DNA from: Sipunculus nudus
Lineage: Eukaryota; Annelida; Sipuncula; Golfingiida; Sipunculidae
DNA length: 64,000 bases
Reading direction: 5' to 3'
NCBI GenBank assembly: GCA_026874595.1
Contig: CM049319.1
Location: 2,177,501-2,241,500, forward strand
A program made the translations under genes and the position numbers. Positions 4,921 through 48,643 of the stretch are shown piece by piece. The first letter of the stretch is position 1, and every line of letters begins with the position of its first letter. The notes below the pieces were generated by a model that was given only the letters and a program-made list of their open reading frames with translations, was not told where the DNA came from and searched no databases.

Positions 4921-6074
4921 GTATCCGCCAAAATCAGAGAAGGACGGGTCAGGTGAGGCATGGATTGAGTGGCAAGGGGATATAGAGTTACATGTGTTAC
5001 ATAATAGAAAGGATCTCTGCCACATAAACATGATTGTAGGTGGCCCCACCTGTTATTTGAACGAGAAACTATCCAAGATGTATACACATGCAAAATTTCA
5101 TGTGGAAAAGTCAAACCACTGCAGAGATATGAGTGATTTTATCCCACAGCAAACAAACAGATGGACGCTGTGCAAAAATGGCTGCTTGTGGCGCCACCAT
5201 TTTTGTGTATGTTATAAAGCTATCCAAGGGCTACATTTGTGTATTTTTTTTTCCTGATTGGTCAAACGGTTCCGGAGATATAAGCATTAATGTCTGCAGC
5301 GTGAACGTGAATGTACGTGGCGCCACCTGTCATAAAAATCAAGAAAGCTATCCAGGATGTATATGCATGCCGAATTACAGGTAATTTGGTCAAACCACTG
5401 CAGAGATAAAAGTGATTTTAACCCAAGGCAGACAAATAGATGGACACTGTGCGAAAATGGCTGCAGTTGGCGCCACCATTTTTGTGTATGTTATATAGCT
5501 ATCCAAGGGCTACATTTGTGTACAAAATTTTTCCTGATTGGTTGAACGAATCCGGAGATATAAGCATGGATGTCTACAGCGTGAACGTGAATGTAGGTGG
5601 CGCCACCTGTCATAAAATCAAGAAAGCTATGCGGGATGTATACGCATGCCGCATTTCAGGTAATTTGGTCAGACCACTGCAGAGATGAGTGATTTTAACC
5701 TAAGGCAGACAAACAGATAGCTGCTGTGCAAAAATGGCTGCAGGTGGCGCCACCTTTTGTTGTGTATGTTATAAAGCTATCCCAGGGCTACATTTGTGTA
5801 AATTTTTTTCCTGATCGGTCAAACGGTTCCCGAGATATATGGGTTTATGTGTGGAAACAGACGCACAAACGGACGCTGGGCTGAGAGGAAAGGTCAGAGG
5901 TCAAGGTCACTTGGTTAGGCACCAGTTAACATGTGACCCGATAATTTGTGTAAGTTTCCGAAAAATCCGTCCAGTAGTCTCAGAGGAGTTCTCCGGAAAC
6001 GAACGCGGCGGCGGCGGCGGCGGCGGAACCCGGTCAAAAACATAGAATCCGCAAAACTTCGTTTTGGCGGATAC
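4921..6074 (+). mobile_element. HINE/pearl-like non-autonomous element with 3 core repeats
   Basis: The left end begins GTATCCGCCAAAA (4921-4933). The right end is the reverse complement of the same 13 bases (6062-6074), and there that arm folds back on a nearby copy (ATCCGC AAAAC ... GTTTT GGCGGAT) to give a terminal hairpin. Between the ends are at least three tandem core units. The landmark ACCACTGCAGAGAT recurs at about 5115, 5394 and 5673, a 279-bp period. Each unit also carries GGTGGCGCCACC-type palindromes. A short 5' inverted repeat, a 3' hairpin and a tandem core match what is known of Helentron-associated elements (HINEs) and bivalve pearl elements; the family assignment is inference. 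I see no transposase or Rep/Hel coding and no obvious target-site duplication. Open frames of 60-112 codons inside follow the repeat unit and are not genes. Confidence 0.6.
6005..6026 (+). repeat. (GGC)7 microsatellite
   Basis: A GCG/GGC trinucleotide run of about 22 bp near the right end of the hairpin-ended element. It is very GC-rich against the AT-rich background and is probably length-variable. Confidence 0.85.
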
Positions 6075-9011: not shown

Positions 9012-9490
9012 AAATTTCTGTGAAAAAGTTTCTCCAAATTAGTATTCAAAATAGTACATATAAAATCATTAGTCCTTTCTTTTCAACAAGGAAAAAATAA
9101 TTATTGCCTTAATTATCTCACTTCATAAATGAGACATTAACAACAACATGAACAGATAGTGTGATTAAAGCGTGATACTTGGGTTTGCCTATTTTGTTCT
9201 CAATTTATCTAGAGATCGAAAAATATGCAGACTAGAACTTGATAGATTATATATGAGCTGGACGCAAATTTCTGTGAAAAAGTTTCTCCAAATTAGTATT
9301 TAAAATAGTACATATAAAATCATTAGTCCTTTCTTTTCAACAAGGAAAAAATAATTATTGCCTTAATTATCTCACTTCATAAATGTGACATTAACAACAA
9401 CATGAACAGATAGTGTGATTTAAGCGTGATACTTGGGTTTGCCTATTTTGTTCTCAATTTATCTAGAGATCGAAAAATATGAGCTGGAGG
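9012..9490. repeat. Tandem duplication, 254-bp period, two copies
   Basis: Copy 1 (9012-9265) and copy 2 (9266-9490) both start AAATTTCTGTGAAAAAG and match almost base for base, with only a handful of substitutions. Copy 2 lacks a block of about 25 bp present in copy 1 between two ATATG words, which fits deletion between short direct repeats. The low divergence points to a recent duplication. No gene is contained. Confidence 0.9.
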
Positions 9491-20034: not shown

Positions 20035-20737
20035 TAACTTTGTCCTGCACATTAAACCGGGTTAGGTTTATTTTGTCCTACACTTTAAACCGAATTAGGG
20101 TTATATTGTCCTACACTTTAAACCGGTTTAGAGTTTTTTTTTTGTCTCGCATATTAAACCGGATCAGAGTTTTTTTGTCTCACACATTAAATTGGATTAG
20201 AGTTATTTCGCCTCATACATTAAACCGGATTAGAGTTATTTAACCTCACACATTAAACCGGATTAGTTATTTTGTCTCACACATTAAATCGGATTAGAGT
20301 TATTTTGTCTCATACATTAAACCGGATTAGGGTTATGTGAACCAGATGTGGGTTAATTTTTTCTACAAGTTGATCCGGATACGATTTTTCCCCCTACAAG
20401 GTAATCCTGATAAGGATTACTTACCAAACAAGTTGATCCAGATTAGGGTGATATTGCCTGTCAATTGATCTGGATTGGAGTTATTTTTCTCACACATTAA
20501 ACCGGATTAGAGTTATTTTGTCTTACACATCAAATCGGATTAGAGTTATTATGTCTCACACATTAAACCAGATTAGAATTACTTTGTCTCACACATTAAA
20601 CCGGATTAGAATTACTTTGTCTCACACATTAAATCGGATTAGGGTTATTTGAACCGGGTTATTTTGTTTTACAAGCTGATCCGGATAAGATTTTTTCCCT
20701 ACAAGGTAATCCGGATAAGGTGAACTTACCAAACAAT
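20035..20737 (+). repeat. Degenerate ~31-bp minisatellite (left flank of satellite)
   Basis: Roughly twenty diverged units of the form 'cacattaaaccggattagagttattttgtct' occur in tandem, with unit length mostly 28-33 bp. Towards the right, units change to forms containing 'gatccggat' that lead into the homogeneous array. Units differ from each other much more than those of the core, so this part is older. Open frames here are by-products of the repeat. Confidence 0.85.
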
Positions 20738-21412
20738 TTGATTCGGATTAGGGTAATATTACCCTGTCAGTTTATCCGGATTAGGGTAATATTACCCTGT
20801 CAGTTGATCCGGATTAGGGTAATATTACCCTGTCAGTTGATCCGGATTAGGGTAATATTACCCTGTCAGTTGATCCGGATTAGGGTAATATTACCCTGTC
20901 AGTTGATCCGGATTAGGGTAATATTACCCTGTCAGTTGATCCGGATTAGGGTAATATTACCCTGTCAGTTGATCCGGATTAGGGTAATATTACCCTGTCA
21001 GTTGATCCGGATTAGGGTAATATTACCCTGTCAGTTGATCCGGATTAGGGTAATATTACCCTGTCAGTTGATCCGGATTAGGGTAATATTACCCTGTCAG
21101 TTGATCCGGATTAGGGTAATATTACCCTGTCAGTTGATCCGGAATAGGGTAATATTACCCTGTCAGTTGATCCGGATTAGGGTAATATTACCCTGTCAGT
21201 TGATCCGGATTAGGGTAATATTACCCTGTCAGTTGATCCGGATAAGGGTAATATTACCCTGTCAGTTGATCCGGATTAGGGTAATATTACCCTGTCAGTT
21301 GATCCGGATTAGGGTAATATTACCCTGTCAGTTGATCCGGATTAGGGTAATATTACCCTGTCAGTTGATCCGGATTAGGGTAATATTACCCTGTCAGTTG
21401 ATCCGGATTAGA
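20738..21412 (+). repeat. Homogeneous 33-bp minisatellite, ~20 units, two palindromes per unit
   Basis: About 20 head-to-tail copies of a 33-bp unit: GTTGATCCGGATTAGGG then TAATATTACCCTGTCA. Each unit holds a perfect 16-bp palindrome AGGGTAATATTACCCT and a perfect 8-bp palindrome ATCCGGAT. Copies are almost identical; I see about three single-base variants (the first unit, one GGAATAGGG near 21142 and one GGATAAGGG near 21240). Because 33 is a multiple of three, one plus frame stays open and reads LIRIRVILPCQ repeatedly (20720-21439). It has no upstream gene context, and I treat it as a consequence of the unit length. The unit contains the hexamer TTAGGG once, so it is not a telomeric array. 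Confidence 0.97.
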
Positions 21413-21600
21413 GATTTTTTTACCTACAAGTTGATCTAGGATTAGTAGTTTTGTCGGAATAAGCTGATTCTGCCCAACAGGTTATGCCGGGTAGGGGTGA
21501 TTTTGCCATACAAGTTTTACCATATCACGACGGTTTTACCCAACAAGTTGATCTGGATAAAGGTGATTTTGCCCTGCAAGATGATCCAGGTTAGGGTTAT
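21413..21600 (+). repeat. Degenerate satellite units (right flank)
   Basis: Several diverged units with 'caagttgatctggat', 'ggtgattttgcc' and 'gatccaggttagggtta' continue the array to the right at low identity. Together with the left flank they bracket the young core. Confidence 0.7.
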
Positions 21601-35348: not shown

Positions 35349-35757
35349 ACCCTGCAGGGATAAACAGACTACACTATCTCACAGTGTTAAATAATCTTTA
35401 AATAAAAAAAGAATATTATGATGATCCAGAGTACCCCTAACTTTTGAAATTGTTCCTAAGGTATTGCCTTAACGCTTAGCAAAATTTCACGAAAATGCGT
35501 TCTATTTTTTGGAGAGACGCTAACAGCCAAATCAACCAATCACGAATGAATCCTGCAGGGATACACAAACTATCCTGTCTCACAGTGGTTAATTATCTTT
35601 AACTAAAAAAAAAAAAAAGGAAAATTATGTTGACCCAGAGTACCCCTAACTTTACCGAATTTTTCCTAAGTTGTTGCCCTAGCAAAATTTCACTAAAAAA
35701 CGTTCTTTTTTAGTAGAGTCACTAACAGACAAACCAACCAATTCACGAATCTTGCGT
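35349..35757. repeat. Tandem duplication, 201-bp period, two copies
   Basis: Copies at 35349-35549 and 35550-35757 share CCTGCAGGGATA at the start, 'ccagagtacccctaactt' in the middle, and 'ctaacagacaaa.caacca.tcacgaat' at the end. Divergence is visible, including expansion of an A-run in the second copy, so this is older than the 9-kb duplication. It ends only about 60 bp from the donor of the neuropeptide exon. Confidence 0.85.
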
Positions 35758-35816
35758 TGGTATAATAAAGGGGATTGCCCGGAGTGGGTACGATATATCT
35801 AGTATTAACCACACAC

Positions 35817-35967
35817 CTGTCCTTTGACGAGTTTCTGATACAGTCTGGTGTCTCTCCTCTTTCTGCCGGGACTCAGGGGGGAGTTCAGGTAATGCCATTG
35901 GTCTGCTACGGAGGCCGCGCTCTCAGTGGCACAGTGACCGCCAAGGTTGAACTGACAGGCACGTTTC
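35817..35967 (-). CDS. Exon of calcitonin/DH31-type neuropeptide precursor
   Basis: A 151-bp minus-strand exon. The acceptor is CTCTTTTACAG after a long pyrimidine tract, and the donor is GGACAG/GTGTGTGG. The first base completes a codon (phase 2 in) and the exon ends in phase 0. Its 50 codons read KR, then ACQFNLGGHCATESAA, SVADQWHYLNSPLSP, then GRKRR and DTRLYQKLVKGQ. The KR and RKRR pairs are prohormone-convertase sites. The Gly after SP is an amide donor, giving a predicted 31-residue peptide with two N-terminal Cys for a disulfide ring and a C-terminal Pro-amide. That architecture and length are the hallmarks of calcitonin and DH31 peptides, which act through class B (secretin-type) GPCRs. 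The seven-residue spacing between Cys is wider than in vertebrate calcitonin. GC is clearly above the flanks. If the donor is not used, the frame stops three codons later (TAA at 35805-35807). Signal-peptide and other exons are not found in the window. Confidence 0.78.
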
Positions 35968-40450: not shown

Positions 40451-42619
40451 AGTGTGTCGGTTTACTTACTGTTCGTGAACCACGTCGGCGTCCATCTCGT
40501 TAAGAATTCTCTTCATGAGCTGTAGACCGCTCCTTTTCCTGGCCATGTCGCTCAAGCGTCTACAAAAGCAAGAAAATGATAAAACGCCCGAACAAGATGA
40601 CTCGTACCGCAACTACCGTGCGGTTTTCTATTAGATTATGCCAATAACAGGCTCTATATCAATAGCACTGCAGTGTAGTGTTAATTTGTCTATTTTGTGT
40701 TTGAACTATTGTATTGATTGAAGACGACTGTTGCTGTCTGGGCGGAATTAACTGCCAAACATGAGTATAGTCTTGTCCAAATTTGGCATGTATCGACATT
40801 TGACATATCTCAGCAGAGAGGATACATGCATGCTTAAAGTGATGTATGTATGAAATAACCATTAAGATTCACCGCAACACGTAGTCGCATACTGTATTAT
40901 ACAGAATATAGGCCAATGTTTAAATTATGATTTGCTGTTAGCTTAACTTTGACATAATCCAGTTAAGTTTATTCTGCGTGGACGTTTATTTCTTAAAATT
41001 TACTCAGCCCTAGATTCAAACTTCAAAGGATAAAATTAAGTTTACAAGTCCCTAAATCGTTTGTTTCTTTTATATTTTAGGTACCAAGCATATTCCGGAT
41101 ATTTCCGAGTTGAAAAAATCAGACATCTTTCTGTGACTTTTTTATGACAAGAACTTGGTAAAAAATACGTGAATTAACGTGCTTTTTCAATTATGAAGGA
41201 ACAAGGTGGTCACGTGATATAACTTTCAATATAATATTCTTCGATCGATCCGAGACACTATAAGCTTATACAAAAAGCATATAACACAAGCGCTTAAATT
41301 ATTACTCGTTATTTATTGGGAATTTCAGTCTTTCTCAATATAGACATCGTTGCTTCCTAATTCACTCTCTCGGGTCACAAATGAACATATTATGTTTTCG
41401 TGGCTGCTGGACGCTTTTGTCACAGTGTTGAACTGACCATTCAAAAATCCCTAGCGTGTAGCTAATCATATTACAGACATTCCGATAATAGCTTAACCAA
41501 ATGCAACAAATCCAAAAGCTCATCCATATTTGCGGGCACCTCTCGGCAAGTGATCATAGTTCGATAAGCAATATTTAAAAATTATGTTTTCACACCAGTG
41601 GTTTATATAGGGGAGAGGTTCACGGCAGGAAATAATGAATAACCACGGATTGGTTCAAAGAAAACTTTTTCTTCTCAGCGACAGTACTAAAGAGACTGTT
41701 GGTCCGGGAACTAGAATAAACCGAGACCCGACGATATATAAAAATAACATATATAAGCAGCATGCATGTGTGCTAGACTGTCACATGTATGAACATTAAT
41801 GCAACAAGCATAAGCATGCCAAACGTGCAAAAATCTCTGGTAGACAGGTGCTTGAATAAAAGAAAGGTCCAGAAAAACGGTCTTTTAACCTGTGAAGCCC
41901 TGTCATGTCTTAAAGTATCGTATCTCAAAGTCCGAAGATCTAATCTTCGGCTAATGCAATAAAAATACACATAGAGCTCCATAAGGTTATTTGAAAGGCA
42001 ATCTTGAAATCGGGAATTTTGCTTCATGCCGGGAAGTTTATAAAATACTGAATTTCTCTGGTTTTATCTTCACTAACGTCGTACCAAAATTTATAAAGAA
42101 TTTAGAGTTACGATTTCAAAAGGGCCTGACAAAAACAGTATCGGAGTATATGTAACAGTACATTACTCATGGTACAGAAAAGTTACTGCTGACCGAAGAT
42201 AAAAAAGTGGAGAGAATACATTAAAATATAAGTATACACTTTACGATACTGAAAGTCGTAGTGACACAACGTACTTGATAATTTTGGTAATTCTTTACTC
42301 GTGCTTTCACAACAACAAAAACACATACAAAAAGTGCGATTTCAATAAGAAAAATCCAACTAAAAGTATTGTATTTATAAAACTGATACTTAAATAATAC
42401 AATGAAAACTAATTGAACGTAAATATACAAAACAACATGCATACCGTAAAGGCAAAGACCTTTTCCCTGGAGAAAACGGACTTGAGTTGACAAATCGGTG
42501 AGCATTATCTTTACCCGCAAGTTTCGCTAGATGACACCCATATCCTGAATTTCCCGCCCCGATAGCGCACGAGGGGGACCATCTTTTCCTTCATGTAGAA
42601 ATAACATTAATTATATGAA
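40451..42619. other. AT-rich non-coding DNA, no gene seen
   Basis: No supported exon or repeat. A 99-codon minus frame at 42221-42520 is hydrophobic (FLIEIALFVCVFVVV) but AT-driven and without clear splice context, so it is not called as a signal peptide or membrane protein. Confidence 0.5.
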
Positions 42620-42830
42620 AGGCTTGCGTTCTATCGCGCATAGGGCGTTCTTGCGTGCGGGCTCGGCATGTAATCACGTGTCTGTCTCTTTTGCGGGCAC
42701 TGCGTTTGCGTGCGTTCTGCTTGGCACATGCGTACTTAATTTGCGTACACGCGTGCGAATCTACCATATCAGAATGCGCATCGCTCTTTCGTATGCTTTG
42801 CGTCAGGGCACAAAACAAGGCTTAATTGAC
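42620..42830. promoter_or_regulatory. CpG- and GCGTG-dense patch
   Basis: A roughly 200-bp stretch rich in CpG, with about ten TGCGT/ACGCA words. It includes TTGCGTG at 42651-42657 and 42706-42712, which fit the AhR/ARNT core TNGCGTG, and a CACGCGTG palindrome at 42748-42755. Open frames on both strands are shadows of the low stop density. It could be a promoter or enhancer; no transcript start can be fixed from sequence. Confidence 0.3.
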
Positions 42831-44214
42831 AGGTTGAATACAAACTTTTCCGCGTACATGCGTGTTATGTCAGTATATTAAAGTCTCGTGATGTCTTAAC
42901 GTTTTCTTTATTGCGGGCGTAAATGCATGTTGGTTCGCGAACGGATTACATCATAGTTTTCTTTGTTATGTAACGTAAATATCGCTTTTTTAAGTCTCTG
43001 CTTTTTAAAATTTATTACAAAGGGTCTATACAGACATTTTGTGCAAGTAAAAAATAAGAATAACGTATTTAAAAAGACTGCGCATGCGTCCTAAGTATGC
43101 GTTTGTTGCCAACGAGAATTTATTTTTTACAAATATCTTGAATTTGTGATATAGGAGATTTTTTTAATCAAACACAATTTCTGTCATAATCGCTCCATTT
43201 ACGATTTACATTGAGGAAATTATCTCAGCTTCCCTTTCCGTTTGGAAGACATTCTTTTTTAAACTCGGACCAGTACACGATGATGGTTGCGAACGGGCCA
43301 GTGTTGAATCTTATATTTCCGCGGGTTCTTATTGCTTCTAACAACTCATTCCAATTATTCAGTGAGGCCTTTTACATAATGTACCATGGGAATCGAGAGA
43401 ATGCCATTTTGCCTACAACGCCAGGACGTGATATCCATCATGCCTGCCTTCTTGAATTGCCTACGAAACTAAATCTGTGCTACGAACATCTTATAATTGA
43501 TCAACTTTCCCCACCGGTTATGCACTTTTTCACCTGTGCAATTACTGGAAGAAATCCATGACCAAAAGCAACATAAATCCTCACCAGCACCCACTGATAA
43601 ATTAATTATATTATTTTAATCAGATATATTGCCCGCAAATGATTAGAGCTATAGCTATTTTAATGTGTCCCATGATTGCTTAACAAAGAGAAACGAAAAG
43701 GTCTCATTACAATGCCTTTAAAGGGACATAATCAGGAGCAATACTATGCCTATTCTTTCACATTATCAGTTCAGTTTTGCTTTATACAAACGTTTCTCAG
43801 CAAAACCATCCCAGCACACAGTCTCAGTACCTCGCACACATCTGTTTATCACTTTGTTATGGCTCTGCGTGTAGGTAAACACAGTACATGTGTGTCTGTT
43901 CACCATAACATGGCCACGTGACTGGAGGTCCCAATATGAACCTTGACACAAATGTGCTACCCGCCCAGTGTATGTCAAATGGAATTTCATAAATTAATGA
44001 AATAATTTAAGGTAAACGTAAATTATGCGGTGCATTAACAGGTCAGTTTATATTAAATTGGAATATCAGATCGTAAAGTGTAGTTGGAGATACGGAGTAA
44101 ATAATATTTGGTAAAGTTGTCAGCTGTTGTTCTCATCCTGTTTGTTTACATCCGTGCCGATGACGCTAGTGGATTATTCAATAGTATTTTGTTTATTATG
44201 TAAGTAAATGGACT
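42831..44214. other. Non-coding DNA, no supported gene
   Basis: Includes an NRF-1-like TGCGCATGCG (43079-43088) and a 116-codon plus frame (43211-43561) of ordinary composition with no recognisable domain. I leave that frame uncalled. Confidence 0.45.
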
Positions 44215-46211: not shown

Positions 46212-48192
46212 TGAGGTGGTGCATCCGTGGGTGACGAGGCAGGGTGATGTAACTCTGTAACCATACCTAGAGAGCTCTGAATTGTTAGCTGCGACCGCGC
46301 TGCGCTTTTTACCAGGCCCATGGCCGCCTATGAGCCAATCTCTCCACATCATTTTATTATTTACTAGTTGCGCCGTGCAATGTTGACTCAGCCCTCCACC
46401 CACCATACAGCTACGCTTCCTGAGCGGGAAGAACCATAGTGCAACAAGGCAAAGAGGACATTCATATGTACAGGCAAGGTAGTGTCAGTAAAACTCCAAT
46501 GATATACATTCGTACATACTTCAAACATATACAAGTATAGTAGAGAGATGAAGTACAAATACTCATTACATAGATATGTATATATCACTGCAATAAGATA
46601 CCAAGGTTCACTGAAAGAAACAAACACAAGAACAAGATGCATTATGGGCATTTACAGGACGTCACAATGAGTAAAGTTCTATGGTACCGTAACACATGCG
46701 GTACTTAAAATCCTGATATTTATTATTGACGATAATACATCCGGTACCCATCAGCGCCACCTTGTGCTCGTGAAGTGTATGAACGATTAACCATCATTTT
46801 TTCCTTCTTATCAGTTACGCTTTTGCTTATTTACCCTAACTCTTCATGACAATTCTCAGCATGAATCTTTTCGTTTTCTTTGCAGAAATTTTTAGTTACG
46901 AAACTTGTTTGGGTCTTAACATGTTCACAAAACCCACACTTGAAGGCGCTGATGCATATTTGAGGTAATACCGTAAATATAAAAAAATATAGTACATCTG
47001 AACAAAAGGGGATCTGTTCATGCTTGAATGGCTTATTTCTAGACATATACTCTGCTTCAAAACATGATGTGTAAGACAACGTGTATAAAAGTGAATGAAC
47101 ATAACAAGGAAATAATAACAAAATATAACAACTCAGGATAATTTATATATATTTATATTTATTGTATTTGAAATCATTATTTTAAGAGACTTGTTGAGAT
47201 CAGACTGGTATTCATGATAATTATCACTGGATTCAGGATTATAATGGGCAATGTGTTACGTAACTGAGAGTTTAGCCAGAAACGTGTTTTAACTACTGAA
47301 TTATAAATGTATAACTGTAATGTAAAAACTCTTTTTGGTTACCTAACAGAACCAAAGCTTTTTCGTGTGGTATCAGTGAAACCTTGCCGATTTTATTCAG
47401 CCTTTAGTTATTGATTTGATAAATATATAAACGATGAGAAACTGGATCTGGTGACATTTTTCTTTTTTGATATCTAAAGTTAAAAAAAAAAAACTGTGAA
47501 TGTCATACAAGTTTAATCAGTTGTAGCATAAAGGGAGTACATCTACCCTGGCGCTACTATAATATGCTTTATTTATTTTATTTCTGATGGATGACGGTTA
47601 AGAAATTTTTCAGGGACGGCGATAATACGAAACAAACTCTGTCATTTGCTATTTAACTGTATGATTGAGGAGGGAGAATTAAGTAGGTTTCCATATATAT
47701 TGCATGACAGACCAACGGTTAAAGTATGCTACTAGTATCTCTGTTTTAACACACTTTCAGTGTGAAAATATATGGAATATCTTTTTTGTTTTAATATGAA
47801 ATGTCATGGACCGTACTAGGTGTGGTAATTATGTGGAACTCATTTTGTGCAAACGAATTCAGTTTGAATTAAAAAGTACTTTTTATTTAAACTATTTTAA
47901 GACATAAGTACAAAATTAAAGTACATATCCGTATGATAAATCAATACCACTACCAGAAATAAACTGTATATTTTTATTTATTCATTACATAAAAAAAATG
48001 TTGATTGTCATTTAGAACAGAGCCTTTCGGAAGATAGATTTGAACTATTCGTTTGTCTTTCTTTAACGATAACCCTTGTATGTGTAATGTCACTGAATTA
48101 AATATGAGCACTAAAGATTAAAAAAGATAATCTTGAAAAACTCAGTGATGATTGATACTGAAGGTTAGATAATCATACCCTACCCGTTTTAG
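46212..48192. other. AT-rich non-coding DNA, no gene seen
   Basis: No supported exon. A partial CTCF-like word on the minus strand (CACAAGGTGGCGC, about 46755-46768) is the only motif noted. Minus-strand frames of 87-96 codons are AT-driven. Confidence 0.5.
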
Positions 48193-48497
48193 GTATACTT
48201 GACGATTATACAAAATATATGAAAATCGAGCCCTTTAGAGAAAACGGAAATGAATGGATTACATTTATGAATATTCAAACTCATGCAGAACGGTATCTAC
48301 AAGACAAGGACTCCGTGTTAACATTTCAAACAGTCATTCCGTCCAACTCGCGATCTGAAGAGGAAATTACTAAGATGAAACAACAGAACAACCACACGGT
48401 AGACATTTACTTACATTTGGCTGTGAAGGTCACCGTCAACGTCATCGATGACGCGTTTCAGTGCTGTCAGTCCTCTTCTAGTTTCCGACAGTTGCTG
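48193..48497 (+). CDS. Candidate exon, unknown product
   Basis: A plus frame stays open for well over 130 codons. It could be bounded by an acceptor CCGTTTTAG (phase 1 in) and a donor TTGCTG/GTAAAG at 48497, or it could run on to its stop at 48614. Residues include ILDDYTKYMKIEPF, WITFMNIQTHAERYLQDKDS, SRSEEEITKMKQQ and VTVNVIDDAFQCCQ. Charge balance is protein-like but I recognise no family. In 64 kb of this composition about one frame of this length is expected by chance. The open frame runs to within 40 bp of the (GT)n(GA)n microsatellite. Confidence 0.2.
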
Positions 48498-48643
48498 GTA
48501 AAGTCTACAAGAAAAAGAAAAGCAATCTATTTATCACACGCCATTTTAAGTAATATTGCAGTGTCAGCACATTTATACGTGTACAGGTTTGCCTTTGTCA
48601 TTGCATCCTTATAGGCACAAAGTGATGAATATGTGTGTCTGTG

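Follow-up and report, generated by a model that had tools for sequence, protein, structure and literature searches.

A probable calcitonin-type prohormone gene with three peptide cassettes in Sipunculus nudus

According to Schwartz 2019, cited in PMC12638048 and PMC8557429, the oyster calcitonins CT1 and CT2 carry a cysteine pair and a C-terminal Pro-amide and act on family-B receptors; PMC12638048 cites the same work for two oyster receptors whose response to the calcitonins of this animal involves both Ca2+ and cAMP. In mussel, CALCI and CALCII also combine a cysteine pair with a Pro-amide, and more calcium built up in mantle tissue and cells after treatment with a calcitonin (PMC7200681). 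Section 7 of the same source describes molluscan precursors with one or two calcitonins. For the Yesso scallop (Patinopecten yessoensis), four calcitonin/DH31 peptides are printed in PMC5996578, which we read as two precursors of two peptides each. A calcitonin A/B gene of termites and decapods yields different calcitonins through alternative transcripts, according to the passages on this gene in PMC4237046, PMC4888303, and PMC7212414, and alternative exons are likewise mentioned for the calcitonin genes of mammals and sea cucumber. As to the peptides themselves, Cai et al. 2018 (PMC6002491) state that 7–9 residues separate the two cysteines of protostome calcitonin-type peptides, as against usually 4–5 in deuterostomes, and that DH31 has no N-terminal cysteine pair.

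Here we describe a locus of Sipunculus nudus that, in our view, very likely represents one protostome calcitonin-type prohormone gene with three peptide cassettes on the minus strand, in the order signal exon, B, C, and A. The gene model consists of a probable signal exon and three peptide exons of 144–153 nt spread over about 38 kb; short and widely spaced exons of this kind belong to a type of gene that automatic annotation may miss. The stretch of DNA analyzed, referred to as the window, spans 64 kb (C14:2177501-2241500) of a 1.43-Gb genome in 153 contigs, and positions given without a contig name are those of the window. A preliminary description had placed a neuropeptide exon at 35817..35967, with no strand given. 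The exon is indeed found there, on the minus strand, with the following features (a slash marks a splice border).

35817..35967, minus strand: exon A, 151 nt with the donor CAG/GTGTGT, acceptor in phase 2 and donor in phase 0
35868..35960, minus strand: peptide A, ACQFNLGGHCATESAASVADQWHYLNSPLSP, 31 residues, cysteines at positions 2 and 10, 21 residues after the second cysteine
35853..35867, minus strand: amidation donor Gly and RKRR convertase site, directly after peptide A

The acceptor of exon A, ..ttcctcttttacag/G at 35967, interrupts a codon between its second and third bases (phase 2). The exon starts ttcctcttttacag/G AAA CGT GCC TGT .. and ends .. GGA CAG/gtgtgt after 35817, and its translation reads KR-ACQFNLGGHCATESAASVADQWHYLNSPLSP-G-RKRR-DTRLYQKLVKGQ. 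The 31-residue peptide with cysteines 2 and 10, the preceding KR, and the following G-RKRR, as originally reported, can all be read in this translation, and the elevated GC content was likewise confirmed (0.56 in exon A versus 0.367 in the window). The 3′ end at 35817 is uncertain because the frame runs on past the proposed donor for V-C-G before it meets TAA; exon A may be the last coding exon, with its 3′ end elsewhere than 35817. All splice sites in the gene model are predictions. Directly 3′ of exon A, at 35400-35760, there are two similar repeat-like stretches, in which a piece like ccagagtacccctaactttt was seen twice by eye; they may be what is left of a transposon close to where the gene ends at its 3′ side.

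A comparison with molluscan peptides, proposed in the preliminary description, was carried out with the four scallop peptides by tblastn. Two of them matched exon A in the window (E 5e-9 and 3e-9), and in the 1.43-Gb genome the same two queries (E 1.5e-4 and 1.1e-4) returned exon A as their only convincing match. The alignments of peptide A with two scallop calcitonins are gapless, with 53% and 47% identity over 32 columns and the same Cys2 and Cys10; the scallop peptides concerned, printed as TCAVEVGG.. and SCKLNLGF.. in PMC5996578, share with peptide A the seven residues between the cysteines and the 21 residues after them. We then scored these alignments against permutations, in which the cysteines and the last Pro were kept fixed and the other residues were shuffled 2000 times. 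Peptide A reached z values of 8.8 and 9.9, and none of the 2000 shuffles attained the observed score; judged by its sequence, the similarity to scallop calcitonins is not due to chance. The gapless alignment and these z values, together with the dibasic and amidation signals, bear out the assignment to a calcitonin-type neuropeptide, and we regard exon A as very probably a genuine coding exon of a gene for a calcitonin-type hormone of invertebrates.

Other searches with peptide A gave little. The exon A product matched no Pfam family at E up to 10, and the joined precursor matched only T4SS_TraI (E 0.13, below its cut-off). Among the sequences of solved structures, peptide A matched one antibody chain, one lyase, and four autolysins; the E values of these six matches lie between 1.1 and 4.4, and we take them as chance. 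An exact-string search of open-licence papers found, for pieces of peptide A, only texts unrelated by title that contain the fragment "hcates", and nothing for pieces of peptides B and C. A single-sequence structure model of peptide A predicts strands at residues 2–4 and 10–12 around the ring and a central helix at residues 15–26; the confidence of this model is moderate (pTM 0.28; mean pLDDT 69.6, the highest among five models, the others having 57.0 to 65.2), and the helical moments were computed without a control.

Exon A had been regarded as the only solid coding sequence in the 64 kb. This is not the case, as two further calcitonin-type exons are located upstream of exon A on the same strand.

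46267..46419, minus strand: exon B, 153 nt, phase 2-2, acceptor cttcccgctcag/G, donor TAG/GTATGG
46314..46412, minus strand: peptide B, SCMVGGGLSQHCTAQLVNNKMMWRDWLIGGHGP, 33 residues followed by GKKR, 9 residues between the cysteines and 21 after them
42445..42588, minus strand: exon C, 144 nt, phase 2-2, weak acceptor (atgaag/G) and weak donor (ACG/GTATGC)
42468..42581, minus strand: peptide C, (WSP)SCAIGAGNSGYGCHLAKLAGKDNAHRFVNSSPFSP, followed by GKR, 10 residues between the cysteines and 22 after them

The statement that the peptide occurs in exactly one copy therefore holds for exon A and fails for the gene as modeled, which has three peptides. A loose motif (dibasic..C..C..G-dibasic), written beforehand and scanned over 264 kb, gave 46305-46421 (exon B) as a second place, with a chance expectation of 0.295 per 264 kb. 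When the scallop peptide TCNIGVNSHFC.. (PMC5996578), the best match of both B and C, was run against the window by tblastn, B ranked first (E 0.042) and a place at 42572-42465, within C, second (E 0.058); in the 264 kb the E values are 0.17 and 0.24, which by themselves amount to weak similarity. In the permutation analysis against this peptide, B reached z 4.4 (1 of 2000 shuffles as good) and C reached z 5.2 (0 of 2000). A tight scan of both strands of the 264 kb (phase-2 acceptor, two basic residues, C..C, PG, two basic residues) found three places, which are the exons A, B, and C, where 200 Markov sequences yielded 0.005 places on average, although this pattern was written after exon C had been seen and is partly post hoc. 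A scan of the minus strand that made no use of cysteines (pyrimidine tract and any phase-2 GT) returned the same three exons only, exon A passing through GTs other than its proposed donor.

The three exons are built alike. Each starts AG/G-[Lys]-[Arg], and B ends in phase 2 on AG/ and C in phase 2 on CG/. Each is opened by KR, which in exon C stands three residues before SC, and each carries a Pro-amide signal (PGRKRR in A, PGKKR in B, and PGKR in C). An in-frame stop just before the exon C acceptor rules out an acceptor farther upstream in the same frame. It is unlikely that A alone is a calcitonin exon while B, C, or both are relics or chance look-alikes, in which case the gene would make one or two peptides. 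Such an origin would fit B and C in that their similarity is weak and their splice sites are weaker, and it would also fit the AAG acceptor of exon C and the low donor scores (3.0 for B and 2.7 for C). However, both exons have open frames, flanking basic sites, a Pro-Gly amidation signal, and matching phase and geometry, and the three places of the tight scan, partly post hoc as its pattern is, and the permutation z values of 4.4 and 5.2 speak further against relics.

The mutual likeness of A, B, and C is small (permutation z 1.1 to 2.4). A blastn comparison of the exons, each with 600-base flanks, found just one 11-base match, between B and C, and a recent tandem duplication of the three exons was rejected on this basis. 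Because the exons show little mutual likeness and their flanks are unlike, any duplication among them would be old. In the genome, the best-scored candidates included no second copy of B or C; a match of the exon C query on C13 (E 0.37) contains two stops. Nor was a second calcitonin gene found in the genome with five peptide queries, the scallop peptides TCNIG.. and FLNDE.. having been run on the 264 kb rather than on the genome. A match of the scallop SCKL peptide at C2:50143608 (E 5.8) lies in a frame that has no Pro-Gly-basic signal. On the plus strand, a 110-codon open frame at 42549-42881 overlaps exon C in antisense and has no Pfam match at E up to 1.

We searched for the start of the precursor by scanning 117.6 kb upstream of exon B on the same strand for an ATG, a hydrophobic core, a signal cleavage rule, and a phase-2 donor, the donors being scored with a generic matrix entered by hand. 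One candidate was found at the stricter hydropathy setting and two at the looser one, the second being less convincing. The first is as follows.

C14:2251157-2251011, minus strand: probable signal-peptide exon, 9.6 kb beyond the window and 27 kb from exon B

Its ATG is at C14:2251111, with a strong acceptor 46 nt before it, and the exon reads MHPCQVFLLLASLAVCVTRSFQAQSPADRENAL and then reaches a CG/GTAAGT donor in phase 2. Joined to B, C, or A, it yields ..NALR-KR... The same scan produced means of 0.625, 0.225, and 0.125 candidates in 40 Markov sequences at donor scores above 2.5, 4, and 6, none on the opposite strand at donor scores 2.5 and 4, and none between B and A. The exon is phase-compatible and is a probable part of the calcitonin gene. 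Between the signal exon and B, no spacer exon was found by a strict scan, whose donor threshold B and C would also fail, so that a spacer may have been missed. In the 135 kb downstream of A, a pyrimidine filter left 308 acceptors, and a calcitonin-like phase-0 exon follows none of them.

These data also bear on whether A, B, and C could belong to two or three separate neighboring genes, which we consider quite improbable. There is a precedent in the oyster, for which two calcitonin genes on different scaffolds are mentioned in PMC7200681. Here, by contrast, A, B, and C share one strand within 10.6 kb, their phase 2 is interchangeable, R-KR is rebuilt at each junction, and there are no signal-exon candidates between B and A, whereas the 117.6 kb scanned upstream of B hold two. 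Moreover, two-peptide molluscan precursors and the three-peptide gene of Capitella teleta are on record in PMC7200681. We infer that the signal exon, B, C, and A form one gene.

Within this single gene, the exons fit together in several ways. Of seven exon combinations tried, all remain in frame to their end or to the stop after A. At the three donors (signal exon, B, and C) the split codon becomes Arg, and R-KR is restored at each junction; Arg is expected by bare base chance in 1 of 8 cases per junction, and the donor consensus raises this chance. We propose that the signal peptide would be removed and that prohormone convertases would cut the precursor at the R-KR sites rebuilt across the junctions (donor end CG or AG followed by G-AAR-CGN/AGA). 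The C-terminal basic residues would then be trimmed, PAM would turn the exposed Gly into a C-terminal Pro-amide, and one disulfide would join the two N-terminal cysteines in a ring. The mature peptides would act on family-B (secretin-type) calcitonin receptors via cAMP and Ca2+, as reported for the oyster calcitonins.

Because B and C are both phase 2-2 and A shares the phase-2 acceptor, B and C are optional without a change of frame. Each could thus be included or skipped, and alternative splicing may choose which peptides are made; such optional inclusion would be in keeping with the symmetric phases of both exons and with the weakness of the exon C splice sites. Alternative splicing has been described for the termite and decapod genes, whereas in the present gene it is a possibility raised by the exon phases. 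The locus points to symmetric peptide cassettes as a feature of protostome calcitonin genes and to splicing as a possible means of diversifying the hormone. A more far-reaching interpretation, which we regard as tentative and somewhat doubtful, is that at least three interchangeable cassettes, with R-KR split at every junction, would let splicing alone pick rings of 7, 9, or 10 residues and would descend from a protostome ancestor whose gene already had alternative calcitonin exons. It is prompted by the scallop list, which pairs an A-like with a B/C-like peptide, and by the arthropod calcitonin A/B gene. If true, ancestral alternative calcitonin exons would constitute a parallel to the splicing of mammalian calcitonin/CGRP.

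It is very unlikely that the gene died recently, keeping an intact sequence and losing its expression: repeat-like stretches do lie close to exon A, but the signal exon and the three peptide exons alike keep open frames together with their splice and processing sites. The reading of exon A as a DH31-type exon, from the cysteine-free branch of the family, deserves almost no credence, since peptide A resembles DH31 in its 31 residues and C-terminal Pro-amide signal but has the cysteine pair that DH31 lacks (PMC6002491) and aligns to decapod DH31 at chance level (z 0.3). The cysteine pair is likewise present in peptides B and C, whose z values against decapod DH31 are −0.4 and 0.9, and the DH31-type label given earlier is accordingly withdrawn.

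The spacing of the cysteines was counted in five protostome and two echinoderm printed peptides that have a cysteine pair. Between the cysteines there are 8, 7, 7, and 6 residues in the four scallop peptides and 9 in the decapod calcitonin. Peptides A (7) and B (9) fall inside the range of 7–9 stated for protostomes in PMC6002491, and C (10) falls outside it. The ring of peptide A had been presented as widened, but a novel widening is excluded by this protostome norm, and a spacing of exactly 7 occurs in two of the four printed scallop peptides; in molluscs and arthropods, a ring of this supposedly widened kind is the usual one. After the second cysteine, all five protostome peptides have 21 residues, as do A and B, with 22 in C, 26 in the starfish peptide, and 24 in the sea cucumber peptide. 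Of the preliminary description as a whole, the calcitonin family stands, the novelty of the ring does not, and the account of the window was incomplete in that B and C were missed.

Set against the known systems, the locus shows both likenesses and differences. Among the few printed peptides compared, the best matches are those of the scallop, and the Pro-amide is common to the scallop peptides printed in PMC5996578 and to A, B, and C. The genome gave no match to the haemocyanin family PF14830, which is not known outside molluscs, but neither did any of 14 control genomes, and this absence carries little weight. The ring of 10 in peptide C sets the Sipunculus locus apart from these scallop peptides, and there are three cassettes at one locus here instead of what we read as two precursors of two. 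Oyster and mussel precursors, as described, hold one or two peptides, compared with at least three peptide exons here. In Capitella teleta, one gene encodes three different calcitonin-like peptides according to section 7 of PMC7200681, as in our model; the comparison covers the number of peptides encoded by the gene. The decapod calcitonin has the same spacing as exon B (9 residues between the cysteines and 21 after them), and its sequence resembles the three Sipunculus peptides only modestly (z 3.2 for A, 2.3 for B, and 3.1 for C). Mammalian calcitonin/CGRP and the echinoderm calcitonins have a ring and a C-terminal amide in common with the peptides predicted here, together with a helix like the one modeled with moderate confidence for peptide A, but usually 4–5 residues between the cysteines (PMC6002491) rather than 7, 9, and 10. 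Neither three separate cassettes with split R-KR sites nor a 10-residue ring was met in the literature used for comparison. Taken together, the locus very likely holds an ordinary calcitonin gene of the protostome type. Protostome genes that encode several calcitonins, or that are alternatively spliced, have been described before, and the three-cassette layout is the only mildly unusual feature here.

Elsewhere in the window, eight open reading frames of at least 110 codons were compared with Pfam along with the joined precursor, and only two sub-threshold rows were returned; this set did not include a ninth frame, at 20633-21439, which consists of the 33-bp repeat array. A 150-codon open frame on the plus strand at 48162-48614, just before TG/GA dinucleotide runs, matched RnlA_toxin_N with E 0.027, below the cut-off of that family and most likely by chance. 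The tandem array at 20738-21411 comprises 20.4 copies of a 33-bp unit with 98% matches; it is located within a 268-codon stop-to-stop frame and looks like a repeat rather than a gene. Further arrays with a 33-bp period are present at 20039-20336 and 20472-20650. At 9012-9481, a 254-bp unit occurs in 1.9 copies that are 98% alike, probably a recent local duplication, and at 5027-5839 a 279-bp unit occurs in 2.9 copies that are 84% alike.
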